Of a DNA stretch of 64,000 nt, positions 5,609-49,348 are shown piece after piece; within the stretch, counting starts at the first letter, position 1; the number at the start of each line of letters is the position of its first letter. Source of the stretch: a virus; the IMG/VR virus record IMGVR_UViG_3300048694_001005, positions 116,566 through 180,565 of that record; one strand, given 5' to 3'. The position numbers were made by a program, and so were the translations under genes. Under the pieces are notes generated by a model. The model did not search any database. It had not been told where the DNA came from and saw nothing but the letters and a program-made list of their open reading frames with translations.

Positions 5609-6046
5609 ATGATTGTTTATTCAAATTCTGTGGACACCTACGTTTTAAGTCGGTTGTCTGAACTCAAACGAATCCGCCGTGGCTATCATGCCACGGCAGT
5701 GCCCTGGTACTATCAATGCAATGTGAACAACTGGGATTGCCTTAGTGGGTTTCCAGTTGACATCACTAGTGTTAAACTAGTCAAAGTATCAGCAAAGCTA
5801 TACAAAAAAACGGCAGTTAATTCTCTCACCTTGGCCAAGACTGAAGCCCTGGACTTTGACTGTGTTCGTATTGCGATACCACTTAGCGATCAAGGGCATT
5901 ATGAGCTGCATGCTGGTGCTGACACCGTGTCGCTAAAATATGGGCGTGTTTATGTGTTCACAGCAGTGGATACTATGAAATTATCAGTTAAAAAACTCAG
6001 CAGTAAAGACTATTACCTATTGATGATTGATTGCATATTAGTATAA
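5609..6046 (+). CDS. Hypothetical late protein
   Basis: 145 residues, starting MIVYSNSVDTYVLSRLSELK, beta-rich with no recognised domain. It lies 14 nt after the previous gene in the same orientation, and its stop codon overlaps the late promoter of the next gene. Context suggests a virion-associated protein; nothing in the sequence fixes a function. Confidence 0.5.
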   Translation: MIVYSNSVDTYVLSRLSELKRIRRGYHATAVPWYYQCNVNNWDCLSGFPVDITSVKLVKVSAKLYKKTAVNSLTLAKTEALDFDCVRIAIPLSDQGHYELHAGADTVSLKYGRVYVFTAVDTMKLSVKKLSSKDYYLLMIDCILV

Positions 6047-6049
6047 ATA
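6042..6049 (+). promoter_or_regulatory. Perfect T4-type late promoter
   Basis: TATAAATA overlaps the stop codon of the upstream gene and is followed by a TGAGGA ribosome site and the ATG at 6072. Confidence 0.75.
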
Positions 6050-6071
6050 CTGATATCCTGAGGACAGAAAC

Positions 6072-8786
6072 ATGCATGTATTAGATTTATTTGGTGAAGA
6101 GTCGCAGCCGTTAAATGAGGGTTCGGTAAAGAATAGAGATATCGAGCGTCAAGACTATGAAAACATGTCAGGACGAGAATTTTTGGCGGCTTATAAAATG
6201 GGCAAAGCAGAATGGGCGCTTAAAAACCCTGACATTGTGCCAAAAAAATCTAAACCCAAAACCACCAACGAAGCTAAACCTGTGGCACATAGTATTGAAC
6301 ATGCTGTTTGGAGTAAAAAGTCCCCTGATGAACAAAAGTTTTTGAAACAGTTGCATCCCGACTTAAAAATCAAAAACGTACCACCAGCACCACGTCCTGA
6401 GCGAGTTAAAAAGACACCAATTGATTACGCCGCTATTGCGCGTAAAGCCGAGAATGTCTGGGGCAATATATTTCCTGATGGCGATCCCGTAGATTGGATG
6501 TATCCGTATTTAAAACGCATGGGTATTCCTGCTGAAAAGCAATACAAGGTATTGGATCGAGCTATTAGATTGCATGTAGACAAAAAAGGTTATGATCATT
6601 GGTTGGAATCAAGCTGGGATCAAGTAGCTGACGACAATATGATGCCAGGTACGGTTACTCGTGAAAATAATCCATGGCGAGTTTCTGAAGGTGTGACAGA
6701 AAATAGCGGAGACACAAGGGCTAAACTGGCCAAAATCATTGCACGTGAAATGAAGACAGCAAAGTCCAGTGAGTTGACAAAGACACAACGCAAACACGCA
6801 TTCGCGGTACTAACACGCGCCAAAGAAGCTAAACGTATGTTGGATGCTGGTGCAGATGAATCCACAGCATGGGCACACTTCCAAGGTACCAAGCAGGAAA
6901 TGGCGGAAGGCAAATGGTTCCGCACCACTTATGGTTGGGCCGGTGGTGAGAAGCCTGGTGGCGGCAAATATGTTCATCCTGAGGTCGCAGCCGAACGTCG
7001 CCGTGAAAAAGCCAAGAAAAAGCGTGAACAGGAACGACAAGCAAAGTCAGGTACAGGTGCCAAACCTACTACCAGTACACATTGCCCGGGCTGTTACAGT
7101 ACCGATATCAAAACCTACAGTGATGGTGAGAAAGAATGCCATCAATGCGGTAAAACTTGGCATGTTTTTGGAAATAGAATTTTTATAGATCATCAGGGCG
7201 AATGGGAGGAGAAAATCAGTAAAGTTTGGCCAAGATCACAGATAGAATACTCCGGCGAAGATATGTATGCCGCTCGTCTAACAAATGGTTATCTCGTAGG
7301 AGCATTCAAAATAGATCAAGGTGGTTGGATAGAAAAGCCAAGGAAAGGTGTGGCGGAAGGCTCCAAAACTCCTTGGAAAGATTTAGATAAACCTTTTGAC
7401 CGAGATGTTAAAAAAATGAAAAACCAAGGCAGCGCCAATCCATTGTACAAAAAGAAGGTTGGTGAGCAAGGTGTGGCGGAAGGCTCGGCGTATCAACATC
7501 ATGTTGTATCAAAATTAGATGGCAATGTATTGGCTTCTTATAAGACGCGAGAAGAAGCTCAGAAAAATGCTCATGGTAATCCAGTTGTTTCTGGTTCTTT
7601 AGAGACCATTGGTGATAGACAATATACCAGAGAGCAAGGTGTGGCGGAAGGCTATTGGCAAGATGCCATACAGGATGTGGAAGCAGCACGTAAAGCACGT
7701 AAAGGCAAACCGTTTGAAAAGAATCCGCTAAGCCATGATGAACAGGGAGTTTACATCGGTGATAAGGATTTAGCTGGCAATCCTGTACCTAAACCCAACG
7801 AAAAGGACGTGGCAGAAGCTAAGCCAGGACTGTATGCCAATGTACAGGCCAAGCGCAGGAGAATCAAACAGGGATCTGGGGAGCGTATGCGCAAGCCTGG
7901 AACTAAGGGCGCACCCACTGCACAAGCTTGGCGCGATGCAGCAAAAACAGCTAAGAAGGAAAGCATGGAGGAAAACATGAAACTTGTTGAATATTTGACA
8001 CGTCCCGGAGAATCATTTGACGCAATTTTAGGTCTTAATGTTTTCGCTGATCTAGTAGGTGATGTTCAAGACATGGATGAAATGTTTGGAGAAAGTAGAG
8101 AATGGCGCAGGATTAGAAAGAAATACACCAAGATAGCCAAATACTATATTGATCTAGTTAACCAAATTTCCGCCACAGGTAGAAAGCTGACAAAGGAAGA
8201 GTCAGACGCTATTGAAATTTGGTGGTATGATGGCAATGATATGTATGATGATGAAGAAATGTCTGGATTGGCGGAAACATACGATGGCCAACTTAAATTA
8301 GTTGAAAGACTAATTGGATCAGGACAATCGGGAGTGACCGAAGATTTGATGAATGAACTGTCCCGAGACACGCTAAAGAGTTATTTTGGTAAACGCATGG
8401 CATCAGCCACGTCCATGGACAAACGCAAAAATTTTAAAAAGGCTACTAAAATCATCAAAACTAATTTACCACTTGCTATGAAAAAACTTAAAGATCCAGC
8501 GTATGGTAAAGCTACGCCCAAATTAGTTGATGAAGCTGCCTTACCAGAAGAACTGTTTAAGACTACATCAGAAATCAATAACCCAACTGATGCCGTAAAA
8601 ATGGATATCCCTCTACTGATTAGAATTATGGAATACGCACGTGAAGATGCCAAAACTGACTTAGAGCTGCATGATGTAGCAGAACGATTAATTAGTTTGG
8701 GCAAGGCAGGTAACACATTAAGCATGCGTGACTATGATAAGATTGTTGGCACTGATGCAAAGGCAATGATCAATAACAAACTATGA
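6072..8786 (+). CDS. Modular 904-aa late protein, candidate head polyprotein
   Basis: Begins MHVLDLFGEE and carries a possible N-terminal cleavage site LNE|G at about residue 18. The same type of site recurs: MAEG, three copies of GVAEG, VAEA, and LAET near the C-terminus. The three GVAEG copies come from an almost identical DNA repeat near 7348, 7469 and 7637, so the middle looks assembled from modules. One module (about residues 335-365) is a zinc ribbon (CPGC...CHQCG). The C-terminal ~250 residues are helical and charged. A prohead-protease-processed polyprotein delivering several internal proteins would explain the layout; unproven. No catalytic domain recognised. Confidence 0.5.
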   Translation: MHVLDLFGEESQPLNEGSVKNRDIERQDYENMSGREFLAAYKMGKAEWALKNPDIVPKKSKPKTTNEAKPVAHSIEHAVWSKKSPDEQKFLKQLHPDLKIKNVPPAPRPERVKKTPIDYAAIARKAENVWGNIFPDGDPVDWMYPYLKRMGIPAEKQYKVLDRAIRLHVDKKGYDHWLESSWDQVADDNMMPGTVTRENNPWRVSEGVTENSGDTRAKLAKIIAREMKTAKSSELTKTQRKHAFAVLTRAKEAKRMLDAGADESTAWAHFQGTKQEMAEGKWFRTTYGWAGGEKPGGGKYVHPEVAAERRREKAKKKREQERQAKSGTGAKPTTSTHCPGCYSTDIKTYSDGEKECHQCGKTWHVFGNRIFIDHQGEWEEKISKVWPRSQIEYSGEDMYAARLTNGYLVGAFKIDQGGWIEKPRKGVAEGSKTPWKDLDKPFDRDVKKMKNQGSANPLYKKKVGEQGVAEGSAYQHHVVSKLDGNVLASYKTREEAQKNAHGNPVVSGSLETIGDRQYTREQGVAEGYWQDAIQDVEAARKARKGKPFEKNPLSHDEQGVYIGDKDLAGNPVPKPNEKDVAEAKPGLYANVQAKRRRIKQGSGERMRKPGTKGAPTAQAWRDAAKTAKKESMEENMKLVEYLTRPGESFDAILGLNVFADLVGDVQDMDEMFGESREWRRIRKKYTKIAKYYIDLVNQISATGRKLTKEESDAIEIWWYDGNDMYDDEEMSGLAETYDGQLKLVERLIGSGQSGVTEDLMNELSRDTLKSYFGKRMASATSMDKRKNFKKATKIIKTNLPLAMKKLKDPAYGKATPKLVDEAALPEELFKTTSEINNPTDAVKMDIPLLIRIMEYAREDAKTDLELHDVAERLISLGKAGNTLSMRDYDKIVGTDAKAMINNKL
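7346..7655 (+). repeat. Direct repeats encoding GVAEG
   Basis: GGTGTGGCGGAAGGCT occurs three times (near 7348, 7469 and 7637), with a related copy (ATGGCGGAAGGC) near 6900. They delimit dissimilar segments within one reading frame. Confidence 0.75.
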
Positions 8787-38955: not shown

Positions 38956-38988
38956 GACCCCAGAAGCCCAAAGCGACTGGGGTTTTTC
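38956..38988 (+). terminator. Terminator, copy 1
   Basis: CCCCAG pairs with CTGGGG around a loop containing AAGCCCAAAGCGA, followed by TTTTT. A sister element is at 46079-46110. Confidence 0.75.
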
Positions 38989-38998
38989 ATTGCTGTAT

Positions 38999-39060
38999 GT
39001 GTGGCGCAACGCGGGCGCGGCAGGCACATTAAACATCTGTAAAAAGGGCGGCCTGGTGGA
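38999..39060 (+). ncRNA. Covarying RNA element, copy 1
   Basis: Shares GTGTGGCGCAACG, a 13-nt hairpin loop of the form GCACNNTAAACAT, and GGGCGGCCT with 46122-46182. The hairpin stem differs but stays paired: GCAG/CTGT here, AGTGG/CCACT in copy 2. Compensatory change supports a conserved RNA structure of unknown function. Confidence 0.55.
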
Positions 39061-39105
39061 TGAACTCCCTCTTGTGGGACGAAAAATACCAGCGTAATAT
39101 TTTGT

Positions 39106-39182
39106 AGGGGTGAGATGCGACGGGAAGCATACCAGCCTTTGAAGTTGGGTCTTAGTGGGTTCGAATCCCTCCACCCCCGCCA
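39106..39182 (+). tRNA. tRNA-Gln (UUG)
   Basis: Cloverleaf with acceptor AGGGGTG/CACCCCC (A1-C72 mismatch, as expected of the weak end pair of Gln tRNAs), anticodon loop CTTTGAA, T-loop TTCGAAT and encoded CCA. First tRNA of the array. Confidence 0.9.
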
Positions 39183-46078: not shown

Positions 46079-46110
46079 ACCCCGAAGATCCCAAAGACTT
46101 CGGGGTTTTT
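46079..46110 (+). terminator. Terminator, copy 2
   Basis: Perfect stem CCCCGAAG/CTTCGGGG with loop ATCCCAAAGA, then TTTTT. The loop resembles that of copy 1. Confidence 0.88.
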
Positions 46111-46121
46111 CATTGTAGTTA

Positions 46122-46182
46122 GTGTGGCGCAACGAGGGCGCAGTGGGCACTATAAACATCCACTAAACGGGCGGCCTTGGTG
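46122..46182 (+). ncRNA. Covarying RNA element, copy 2
   Basis: See copy 1 at 38999. Conserved single-stranded blocks with a compensated stem AGTGG/CCACT. Confidence 0.55.
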
Positions 46183-46220
46183 ATCAACGTGCGGCGATAA
46201 CGCATTAGTAAAACCCAAGC

Positions 46221-46293
46221 GTAATAAAGTAGATTCTTTAAGGTCTGGCCGTTACCAGCCTGGCAAAAACGGCGACAGAATCTACTTTATTAC
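46221..46293 (+). repeat. 17-bp perfect inverted repeat with structured loop
   Basis: Arms 46221-46237 and 46277-46293 are exact reverse complements. The 39-nt interior contains GCCGTT/AACGGC and a TGGCC segment. There is no T-run. It resembles the sealed tRNA-like elements near 60 kb. Confidence 0.85.
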
Positions 46294-46351
46294 ACACATT
46301 CTGGAACCAAATGGGAGTGAAATGTCCGTGGCGGAGTGTGTTAAACAATAT

Positions 46352-46426
46352 GTATCGGTGGCTGAAAAGTTAGGCATCCGCCTGCAAAGCGGATTTATGG
46401 GATGGCAGAATTCCTCCGATACTCCA
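46352..46426 (+). tRNA. tRNA-Cys (GCA)
   Basis: Acceptor GTATCGG/CCGATAC, anticodon arm TCCGC-CTGCAAA-GCGGA, U73 and TCCA end as required for Cys. The T-arm is degenerate (no TTC loop). Confidence 0.8.
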
Positions 46427-46432
46427 AACAAT

Positions 46433-46522
46433 GGCGGGTTCGCATAGCGGCGATTGCAGTGGTCTCCAAAACCACCGATGAATATACCATCCACGGGAGT
46501 TCGAGTCTCTCACCCGTCGCCA
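46433..46522 (+). tRNA. tRNA-Trp (CCA) with extra arm
   Basis: Acceptor GGCGGGT/ACCCGTC, anticodon arm GTGGT-CTCCAAA-ACCAC, G73, CCA. The variable region is 19 nt and can form GATG/CATC, unlike normal class I Trp tRNA. The end of the minus-strand endonuclease gene overlaps its last 13 nt. Confidence 0.82.
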
Positions 46523-47184
46523 TACATTGAGTCAAATAACTTTATTCGTTGATGTAGGTCACTTAACGTGATTGACGATTTGGCTCGCTTTTTTTGATTT
46601 TCTTTATGTCGAACTAATTTACAGTTCGCGGGATGTGCGAGTAGTTTTGGATCAATTTTATTTTTGAACCCATCGCTTACCGAATAAAGATGATCACGTG
46701 AGATACCGTTAGTATTTTTAATTCCGGATCTAGATCCAGGAGTGGAATACCAACCAAACTCTTTAATCATTTCGGATGCCCCAATAAACCAATTTGGATA
46801 TTGGGATATTGAAAAATTAAATCGGCATTGATATCCGTATTGATTTTTTGTTTCCTGCACAGAAGGATGAATAGTTTTTACAGTTGGTGAATACCACTGC
46901 TTACCTGAAATCTTGCAGGTACAAAGGTAAATTTTTGTAAATGGTTCAACAAAGGCAATTTTGGATTTAACTCGTTCTTGCGGATTGCGTCGTTGGTGCT
47001 CTCCAAATTGGTTTTTGATAGTAGTTTTTTTACCGATGGTATATTTGAGTTTTGCTAGGTGGTCGTCGGTAATAACACGACTGTTGGCACAGCGACGAGA
47101 ACAGAATTTTTTGTTACCCCATTTACTGTAACTATTGAATACGATATTGCATTTGGGGCAGATGGCTTGAATATATTTGTTCAT
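46510..47184 (-). CDS. HNH-type homing endonuclease (HPxNC family), copy 1
   Basis: 224 residues. An N-terminal zinc finger (CPKCNIVF...CSRRCA) is followed by a central region shared with the protein at 48316. The core is GISRDHLYSVSDGF...HPANCKLVRHKENQKK, a phage homing endonuclease pattern. The last residues (FDSMYGDG) are encoded inside the 3' end of tRNA-Trp. A minus-strand TATAAATA at 47275-47282 is a likely late promoter. Confidence 0.82.
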   Translation of the reverse strand: MNKYIQAICPKCNIVFNSYSKWGNKKFCSRRCANSRVITDDHLAKLKYTIGKKTTIKNQFGEHQRRNPQERVKSKIAFVEPFTKIYLCTCKISGKQWYSPTVKTIHPSVQETKNQYGYQCRFNFSISQYPNWFIGASEMIKEFGWYSTPGSRSGIKNTNGISRDHLYSVSDGFKNKIDPKLLAHPANCKLVRHKENQKKRAKSSITLSDLHQRIKLFDSMYGDG

Positions 47185-47274
47185 GTTTGTTTCCCTTAAA
47201 TAGTGCTGTAGGGACAGTTCAGAGTTTCCCCTGAATTGATTTGTTGTTCTAGCAACAAATCTTACCTACTCAAG

Positions 47275-47282
47275 TATTTATA
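47275..47282 (-). promoter_or_regulatory. Late promoter for minus-strand endonuclease
   Basis: Reverse complement reads TATAAATA, about 90 nt upstream of the ATG at 47184. Confidence 0.65.
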
Positions 47283-47289
47283 CCAGTTA

Positions 47290-47770
47290 AATATCGGCTC
47301 AGTGATCGTGCGCAAGCACACAGACGGAGGGACTGCTGGAGAAAGTGTCCTGGGCGTGATGCGCCCGTCGACCATTCGGGTCTAACTCCAAAGAGCGACC
47401 ATTGTCGCAATACCCTGTTGCCAGTAATGGCTAACAAATGAAAAGCGTCCTAAAACGATCGGCGGGGCAAAACTTGCGACATAAAAATTAAGCCAAATGG
47501 CTACGGAATAGCGGTCAGCGCCAAGAGAGAACGTGAGCCACCCAGTGGGATGGGAGTTGAAGGCTCTTGGGACTCAGCCCCGCCCCCAACAGGGCTAGAC
47601 GCCAGAGTTGAGTACGCGACGTGTGTCCGAGGTAAAGAATTATGGTTGCACACTGAGTGAAGATGCCTCCTCTGCGCGAGACAATCCAGTGAGTCCCCTT
47701 AGCGAGGGATAGCTGGGCGCCCAACTTTCAATGCCGGCGGTTTCGCGTGTAACTCCACGTGCCGGCTCCA
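47290..47770 (+). ncRNA. Candidate large structured RNA (~480 nt)
   Basis: No ORF of note and no tRNA, but many compact hairpins, several with GNRA-like loops: GTGC-GCAA-GCAC, GGGCG/CGCCC, GCGAC/GTCGC, GCCA-GTAA-TGGC, AGCC/GGCT. The end forms a minihelix, GCCGGC plus CGCGTG/CACGTG, finishing in TCCA. It lies directly before tRNA-Ile. Large ornate phage RNAs such as GOLLD and ROOL occur beside tRNA arrays, which makes this a fair hypothesis. I see no rRNA, tmRNA or RNase P signature. Strand assumed from the array. Confidence 0.45.
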
Positions 47771-47778
47771 ATTATAAT

Positions 47779-47858
47779 GCCTCTTTAGCTCAGTCTGGTT
47801 CTAGAGCGTCGTGTTGATAACGCGGGGGTCCTTGGTTCAAATCCAAGAAGAGGCACCA
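47779..47858 (+). tRNA. tRNA-Ile (GAU)
   Basis: Acceptor GCCTCTT/AAGAGGC, anticodon arm TCGTG-TTGATAA-CGCGG, T-arm CTTGG-TTCAAAT-CCAAG, A73, CCA. Confidence 0.9.
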
Positions 47859-48242: not shown

Positions 48243-48329
48243 GAAGGGTCGGCGAAGATGGTGAGTGTCGCGGCGGTCTGTAAAACCGTTACTTAAGAAC
48301 CGTAGTTTGTTCGAATCAAACACCCTTCA
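48243..48329 (+). tRNA. tRNA-Tyr (GUA)
   Basis: Acceptor GAAGGGT/ACCCTTC, anticodon arm GCGGT-CTGTAAA-ACCGT, class II variable arm, T-arm GTTTG-TTCGAAT-CAAAC, A73; CCA not encoded. The minus-strand endonuclease stop codon lies in its T-arm. Confidence 0.85.
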
Positions 48330-49260
48330 CTGAGTCGTATTGATTTACCATAGAGATTAAATCTTCATATTTAATTGATGATTTAGATTTTTTTACTCCG
48401 TTGAGCCTGTGGGGCATTAATTCACAATTGCATGGATGTGAGATATAATAAGGATCATAATTATATTTGATGGCGTCTGATATAGATACTTTGTGATCCC
48501 TTGATAATCCATCAAGATTCCATCTGCCAGTTTTGCCCCCTGGAGCATAAAATCCTACCCTTTTTAAGAGCTCTATGTCGAATAAATCTGGATAATCATA
48601 AACGTTAAAGCAAAATCTATATTGCGATCGTTTATTTGAATGGAATTTCCGGCATGGGTTACAAAATTGCAACTGCGTTCTGGCTATGAATAATCCCTTG
48701 CAGTTTTTACAAGAGCAATAACAAATTTTGGAAAATGGACCAGATGGATTTACATTGATTCTTTTGATTCTACTTCTTCTATGTTTGTCGGCGCAACAAA
48801 GTTTCGCATCTTTTCTATTTAGATGTAATGATTTACATTTCCTGCATTTGAACGTTTTAGTTTTCTTATTGGATTTAGATTTTAAGGTTTGAGAAATCTT
48901 ACTTTTGGTTGTTTGGGTTACATTATACCCGTTCTCTATACGTTTTTTATTGGATATTTTGGCAGCACACTTATGTGAGCAAAATCGATTTTTTCTTTTT
49001 GAGTAGATTAAAACCTCACAACAATTTTCGCATTTTTTTGGAGATCTGCTATAATCGTTAATCCTTTGTGTTTGAGATTTTTCTAATTGGTTCTTACGAT
49101 TTAATATGGATTTTTGAGATCCTAATGAACGTTTAACCCTATTAAAGCCATCTTTTGTATGTGACGCTAGATAATGTGAGTGAATTCCTTTTGCAGATCT
49201 TACATCTTTACAAATTACGCAAGAGCAAAGTGCTGAAAAATAAATATGGTTGCTGGACAT
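48316..49260 (-). CDS. HNH-type homing endonuclease (HPxNC family), copy 2
   Basis: 314 residues from the ATG at 49260 (AAAGGA site). Several zinc fingers (CSCVICKDV..., CENCCEVL...CSHKCA, CRKCKSLH) precede the core GLSRDHKVSISDAI...HPCNCELMPHRLNGVKKSKSS, paralogous to the protein at 46510. Its C-terminus (YDSVKGV) is encoded within tRNA-Tyr. A minus-strand CTAAATA motif lies near 49335. Confidence 0.85.
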   Translation of the reverse strand: MSSNHIYFSALCSCVICKDVRSAKGIHSHYLASHTKDGFNRVKRSLGSQKSILNRKNQLEKSQTQRINDYSRSPKKCENCCEVLIYSKRKNRFCSHKCAAKISNKKRIENGYNVTQTTKSKISQTLKSKSNKKTKTFKCRKCKSLHLNRKDAKLCCADKHRRSRIKRINVNPSGPFSKICYCSCKNCKGLFIARTQLQFCNPCRKFHSNKRSQYRFCFNVYDYPDLFDIELLKRVGFYAPGGKTGRWNLDGLSRDHKVSISDAIKYNYDPYYISHPCNCELMPHRLNGVKKSKSSIKYEDLISMVNQYDSVKGV

Positions 49261-49348
49261 GATTCGTTCCTTTCGAATTGTGTTGATGTCTAGGGCCAGT
49301 AGATGTTGACGCATCGTGACTGGCACTAAATTATTTAGTCAGGTTCGA

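Follow-up and report, generated by a model that had tools for sequence, protein, structure and literature searches.

An uncatalogued structured RNA within tRNA arrays of environmental phages

Comparative sequence analysis identifies positions 47590-47724 (+ strand) of a 64,000-nt stretch of virus DNA, hereafter the window, as one copy of an uncatalogued structured RNA of ~130 to 160 nt ("family A"), which is carried by at least 100 environmental phages. We assign a rough probability of 0.6 to the reading that family A is a stable, trans-acting RNA freed by tRNA processing, like RNAs C and D of phage T4.

Results and discussion

The phage record and its tRNA array

The window makes up the final 64 kb of an IMG/VR virus record 180,565 bases long. 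Among GenBank phages, its DNA polymerase is nearest to those of Sinorhizobium phage Phosso (49% identity) and Agrobacterium phage Atu_ph07 (46%), whose genome sizes are 469-490 kb, and the record is thus probably a jumbo-phage fragment. A tRNA array spans 39.1-62.8 kb of the window with every tRNA on the + strand (36 tRNAs by ARAGORN; 38 by the tRNA model in the whole record). Such arrays often contain divergent tRNAs, and the tRNA model matches places that ARAGORN missed, 46352-46423 (+) among them. Antisense phrog_23051 genes lie between tRNAs at 46510-47184 (-), homing-endonuclease-like by context, and at 48316-49326 (-), and related genes break up the arrays of loci L343 and L158 beside tRNA remnants, which suggests that phrog_23051-type genes home into tRNA genes.

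Downstream of the first of these antisense genes, a sequence-only reading had singled out ~480 nt (47290-47770) as a gene-free, hairpin-rich gap within a phage tRNA array, possibly one large ornate RNA recalling GOLLD and ROOL. The gap is gene-free as described, overlapped only by ORFs of 43-69 aa with TTG or GTG starts, and it does lie in the array; ARAGORN places no tRNA inside it and the next one, tRNA-Ile (GAT), at 47779-47858 (+). Likewise, the failure to align the gap to a known family was borne out by cmscan against Rfam at E ≤ 10, which over 47150-47800 returned only chance-level scores (10-16 bits). There was no Rfam match at the gathering threshold for the gap region, and none to a mundane family, an outcome named beforehand as refuting. 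BLASTn of the whole gap region against GenBank phages gave nothing credible, and the exact 19-mer GGAGAAAGTGTCCTGGGCG had 0 matches in viral contigs. The tRNA and tmRNA models found no match in the gap region, which speaks against a cryptic tRNA there; a group I intron, RNase P RNA, and tmRNA were judged by eye, and Rfam support for them is absent.

The hairpins fared less well. Short GNRA-capped examples do exist (GTGC-GCAA-GCAC at 47308-47319 and GCCA-GTAA-TGGC at 47420-47431), but the whole gap folds no better than chance (MFE z = -0.86), with 20 of 100 dinucleotide shuffles folding equally well or better and 47 pairs at p ≥ 0.8 against a shuffle mean of 60, i.e., no excess. Since shuffles match the fold of the gap, hairpin richness seen by eye is not evidence. 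GC content is 0.51 in the gap vs 0.41 in the window.

Discovery and distribution of family A

A whole-record tRNA search and the kinase gene at 52847-53707 led to relatives with tRNA arrays. Relatives traced through three other proteins, namely the DNA polymerase, an array protein of 244 aa, and one of 320 aa, had no gap homolog. With the gap as sole query, nhmmer gave two weak matches (E 0.012 and 0.027) in two relatives. Each lies between tRNAs on the tRNA strand, and the two align to the identical 3' part of the gap. Together with the window copy these make three first copies, which share UAGACG...GAG..GAGU...CUC.UC...CGAGACAA...GAGUCC...GAUAG, and the family search pattern drawn from them, CGAGACAANNNANNGAGTCN{6,20}GATAG, matched at least 120 stretches in IMG/VR viral contigs vs only 6 in 84,980 bacterial and archaeal genomes. 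The latter (L385-L390) were rejected as chance matches, lacking the 5' motif and going unfound by the family model R1. Among the matches listed, 113 were full-length copies, 72 of them non-redundant.

In the window, R1 matches 47583-47734 (79.2 bits, E 3.5e-20), this copy being itself in the R1 training set. It is an outlying member, at 79 bits vs up to 168 elsewhere, and its nearest kin are the copies in L343 and L368. R1 found exactly one copy in 29 of 29 carrier records, which are up to 383 kb long, and no copy in 11 other records including the complete Phosso and Atu_ph07. Among the largest carriers, polymerase identity to the window phage is mostly 59-71%, G147 being more distant. Many array-bearing relatives lack family A, which is therefore dispensable for having an array. 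BLAST with two typical copies found no match in 50,697 GenBank phage records; family A is absent from Rfam 15, where five further copies also gave no match at E ≤ 5, and we found no description of it in the open PMC literature.

A three-way junction supported by covariation

Judged by covariation, the fold of family A is a three-way junction. For an alignment of 62 sequences, the RNAalifold consensus has 24 pairs, which form stems P1, P2, P5, and P6, with 96.6% of 1487 cells paired (82.4% in shuffles), 13 of the 24 pairs changing on both sides, and a covariation score of 0.473 (0.198 in shuffles). All five fold measures beat all shuffles (0 of 500 match), and pairing falls to 35-45% (≤ 45.4%) once the partners are displaced by 1-3 columns. 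Five clades, aligned separately, give 35-45 pairs each at 97.6-99.1% paired and add stems P3 and P4. Family A is thereby established as a structured RNA. The window copy is in A2 and in R1, takes part in an independent clade fold with L343 and L368, and shows the covarying three-way junction together with the UAGA, AGACAA, GAGUC, and GAUAG motifs.

In the window, all on the + strand, the closing stem P1 pairs GGGC (47592-47595) with GCCC (47719-47722), and compensatory changes turn this pairing into TTTCCC/GGGAAA in L251 and TTTCAGA/TCTGAAA in L257. The junction strand J1/2 (UAGA, 47596-47599) is invariant in the 62 sequences while the base preceding it varies. A long arm, P2 (47600-47678), follows in the alignment and clade folds, pairing CGCCAGAG (47600-47607) with CTCTG (47670-47674) and GCG (47676-47678) and including the variable P3/P4 subdomain. 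The junction strand J2/5 (AGACAA, 47679-47684) is conserved, partly by construction since CGAGACAA is in the search pattern, and leads into a 3' arm (47685-47717) in which P5 (TCCAGT, 47685-47690, with GCTGGG, 47712-47717) and P6 (GTCCC, 47693-47697, with GGGAT, 47706-47710) are accompanied by a GA/A internal loop.

Motif invariance within 47677-47711 is partly a product of the search pattern, in which GAGTC and GATAG also sat, though that pattern left most P5 pairs unconstrained. The case for the fold hence rests on the stems and the unconstrained 5' half; the covariation is not a search effect, because the P1 5' strand and P2 lie upstream of the search motif and were free to vary.

Position within tRNA arrays

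At the loci of the 113 copies listed, 2191 tRNAs lie on the family A strand and 0 on the opposite one. A called tRNA ends right at the start of family A in ~60 of these 113 copies, many of the remaining copies are preceded by a divergent tRNA-like end with a T-arm and CCA, and the next tRNA begins within ~10 nt downstream in 79 of the 113. The identity of the neighbouring tRNAs and the place of family A in the array vary between copies, with upstream/downstream tRNA counts running from 4/25 to 31/3 among copies flanked by ≥ 3 kb on each side. Upstream of the window copy, the closest called tRNA is ~1 kb away and the antisense gene intervenes, which counts against the stable-RNA reading.

Comparison with known RNAs

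The closest known parallels are T4 RNAs C and D (species 1 and 2 RNA; rnaC and rnaD), non-coding RNAs of 139 and 119 nt in a phage tRNA cluster, which, like family A, nearly abut tRNAs on the same strand. They were detected as late RNAs of unknown function (PMC9697503). Homology with them was rejected: R1 on the T4 locus (L391), run with the arrays, gave nothing at E ≤ 1, the only R1 match, an insignificant one (11.2 bits, E 0.14), is on the opposite strand, and the tRNA-like T-arm sequence GGGTTCGAATCCC of T4 RNA C is absent from family A. As far as can be said, and by analogy, family A would work like these T4 stable RNAs.

GOLLD and ROOL are structured non-coding RNAs of unknown function that are often found near phage tRNA islands (PMC12286853). 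Family A shares that niche, so the likeness drawn by the sequence-only reading stands to the extent of a structured, uncatalogued RNA in a phage tRNA array. The likeness ends there: GOLLD often exceeds 800 nt whereas the conserved unit of family A is 130-160 nt, the GOLLD covariance model has no match at gathering or at E ≤ 10 (five other copies: none at E ≤ 5), the ROOL model has none in the window region or in the five other family A copies, and no other Rfam family matches. The arrays of relatives (G003, L154, and L156) also hold a structured RNA of the tmRNA type, including permuted forms (RF01850, RF01849, and RF04321), from which family A differs in being without a tRNA-like domain, a tag ORF, or a tmRNA model match. 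By these comparisons, family A is neither GOLLD, ROOL, tRNA, nor tmRNA, nor any Rfam 15 family. To our knowledge, RNAs beside phage tRNA genes, i.e., T4 RNAs C and D, GOLLD, and ROOL, have no known function.

A probable trans-acting RNA freed during tRNA maturation

In the reading we favour, family A would be transcribed within the polycistronic tRNA-array transcript and excised by the maturation enzymes of its neighbouring tRNAs. On the 5' side, this would be 3' maturation of the upstream tRNA; on the 3' side, RNase P would act at the next tRNA or, in the window phage, at a minihelix ending in TCCA (47733-47770), which may serve as an RNase P substrate replacing the usual downstream tRNA. As spacing is only a few nucleotides on both sides in most carriers, maturation of the tRNAs to either side would set free a family A RNA, expected to be ~140-160 nt and closed by P1. 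This product would accumulate during infection as a stable, single-copy, trans-acting small RNA. The reading draws on release by processing, on the occurrence of just one copy, on how widely family A is conserved, and on its mobility within the array; varying places and neighbours fit a gene of its own that acts in trans. The likeliest partner, at a guess, would be a component, protein or RNP, of the host's apparatus for translation or tRNA processing, with recognition via the conserved junction strands (UAGA and AGACAA) and the GAGUC/GAUAG arm; in the fold, the obvious candidates for contact sites are the junction strands, which are unpaired, and the GA/A loop in the 3' arm.

More broadly, we see about an even chance that family A is a dedicated component of tRNA arrays, i.e., a widespread, undescribed class of phage non-coding RNA with at least one companion class ("family D", below) in the arrays. 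Its role might then be, for example, that of a trans RNA reprogramming host translation or tRNA processing, or one blocking tRNA-directed defence. If true, a small, conserved set of RNA tools would accompany the tRNAs of large phages. Family A also shows that common RNA genes of environmental jumbo phages escape Rfam-based annotation. Being compact (~140 nt), single-copy, and known from > 100 natural variants with a firm covariation fold, family A makes the question of function testable: its length suits SHAPE, structural work, pull-downs, and deletion of the gene, and the conserved junction points to a site of action.

A role in cis within the array transcript, whether as a scaffold for processing, as a stabilising element, or in antitermination, would also account for family A always lying on the tRNA strand, embedded in the array transcript, and long untranslated arrays plausibly need shielding from termination. 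We nevertheless regard it as unlikely, since just one copy occurs per record and no array position is fixed, whereas an antiterminator should sit at the array start, a place occupied by another RNA, family D. Quite improbable, in our estimate, is a counter-defence decoy, an RNA that would occupy or inhibit a host nuclease or RNP attacking tRNAs or phage RNA. Recognised targets of phage immunity include tRNAs (e.g., PMC12851939); the presence of family A among related phages is patchy, and its variable parts would seem to evolve fast, as in arms races. However, neither a defence gene nor a target has been identified, and the core is strongly conserved across diverse clades, unlike a rapidly changing inhibitor.

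We give very little credence to the proposal that 47290-47770 forms one ornate RNA of ~480 nt with GOLLD-like logic, in which family A would be the conserved 3' domain of a larger, lineage-specific molecule. The contiguous gene-free stretch with its raised GC, a predicted pairing of 47295-47298 with 47761-47764 that would close it, and 96.6% conservation of 47500-47586 in L343 could be read that way, but the global fold resembles that of shuffles, the conserved structured part extends over only ~130-140 nt (47590-47724), and 47290-47460 has no homolog. Further, a 348-codon ORF splits the upstream-domain homolog from the family A copy in L343, and family A stands alone in L368, between tRNA-Trp and tRNA-Thr, as in most other carriers. 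On account of these two loci, the gap is most simply a composite of separate parts, of which the family A core is one.

Other parts of the gap and other RNAs in these arrays

The first part, 47290-47460 (+), is an unassigned non-coding stretch for which the homolog search found nothing. Next to it, folding delimits an upstream domain (47461-47588, +) closed by GGCGGGGC (47461-47468) and GCCCCGCC (47577-47584) and bearing a CCCA end. Its only homolog is the 47500-47586 match in L343 (5685-5771), where the ORF occupies 5718-6764 and family A 6749-6897; a pattern scan for the domain found only L343 plus one chance coding match. An atypical tRNA is a possible reading of this domain, which has an acceptor-like stem and the CCCA end but is missing a T-arm. 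The ending minihelix with TCCA noted by the sequence-only reading is present on the + strand as GCCGG...CCGGC-TCCA and is kept in L343 at 6893-6932 (nhmmer E 0.032), with the outer stem and TCCA conserved and the inner stem exchanged for a different complementary one.

Family D is a second uncatalogued RNA, located in the window at 38964-39110 and 46087-46350 (+), with the layout AGTGTG..(hairpin around AACGAGG)..GCACTnTAAACAT..AAACGGGCGG..GAAAAAT..GCGTATTAAAG and then a long arm. Its hairpin shows compensatory changes and there is an apparent pseudoknot. The loci examined contain 34 distinct copies, often just upstream of tRNAs (frequently tRNA-Tyr) and in several cases directly 3' of a terminator-like hairpin and T-run; the L343 and L368 copies had no Rfam match at E ≤ 2. 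In Phosso (L152:31808-33103), ~1.3 kb without annotated genes, and without an Rfam match at gathering, comes right after an annotated tRNA-Pyl(CTA).

Phage permuted tmRNAs occur in or near the arrays of relatives (L136:8634-8987, L156:6081-6448, and L154:4379-4735), with the tags ANDEVFALAA and ANDDLFAMAA. A conserved apical domain, CGTTACCAGCnTGGCAAAAACGGCGACAGA, caps long stems of differing sequence in different RNAs (window 46222-46300 (+); L136:8738-8800; L154, L155, L156, L157, and L158), including the intervening piece of permuted tmRNAs (G003, L154, and L156) and the long arm of family D in the window, and looks like a swapped RNA domain. Finally, several hairpins in one array have near-identical arms, AAACACATT..AGTGTGTTT, around different cores (L155:13259-14080; L158:1321-1394, 1801-1846, and 2107-2309), as if recombination keeps the arms alike.
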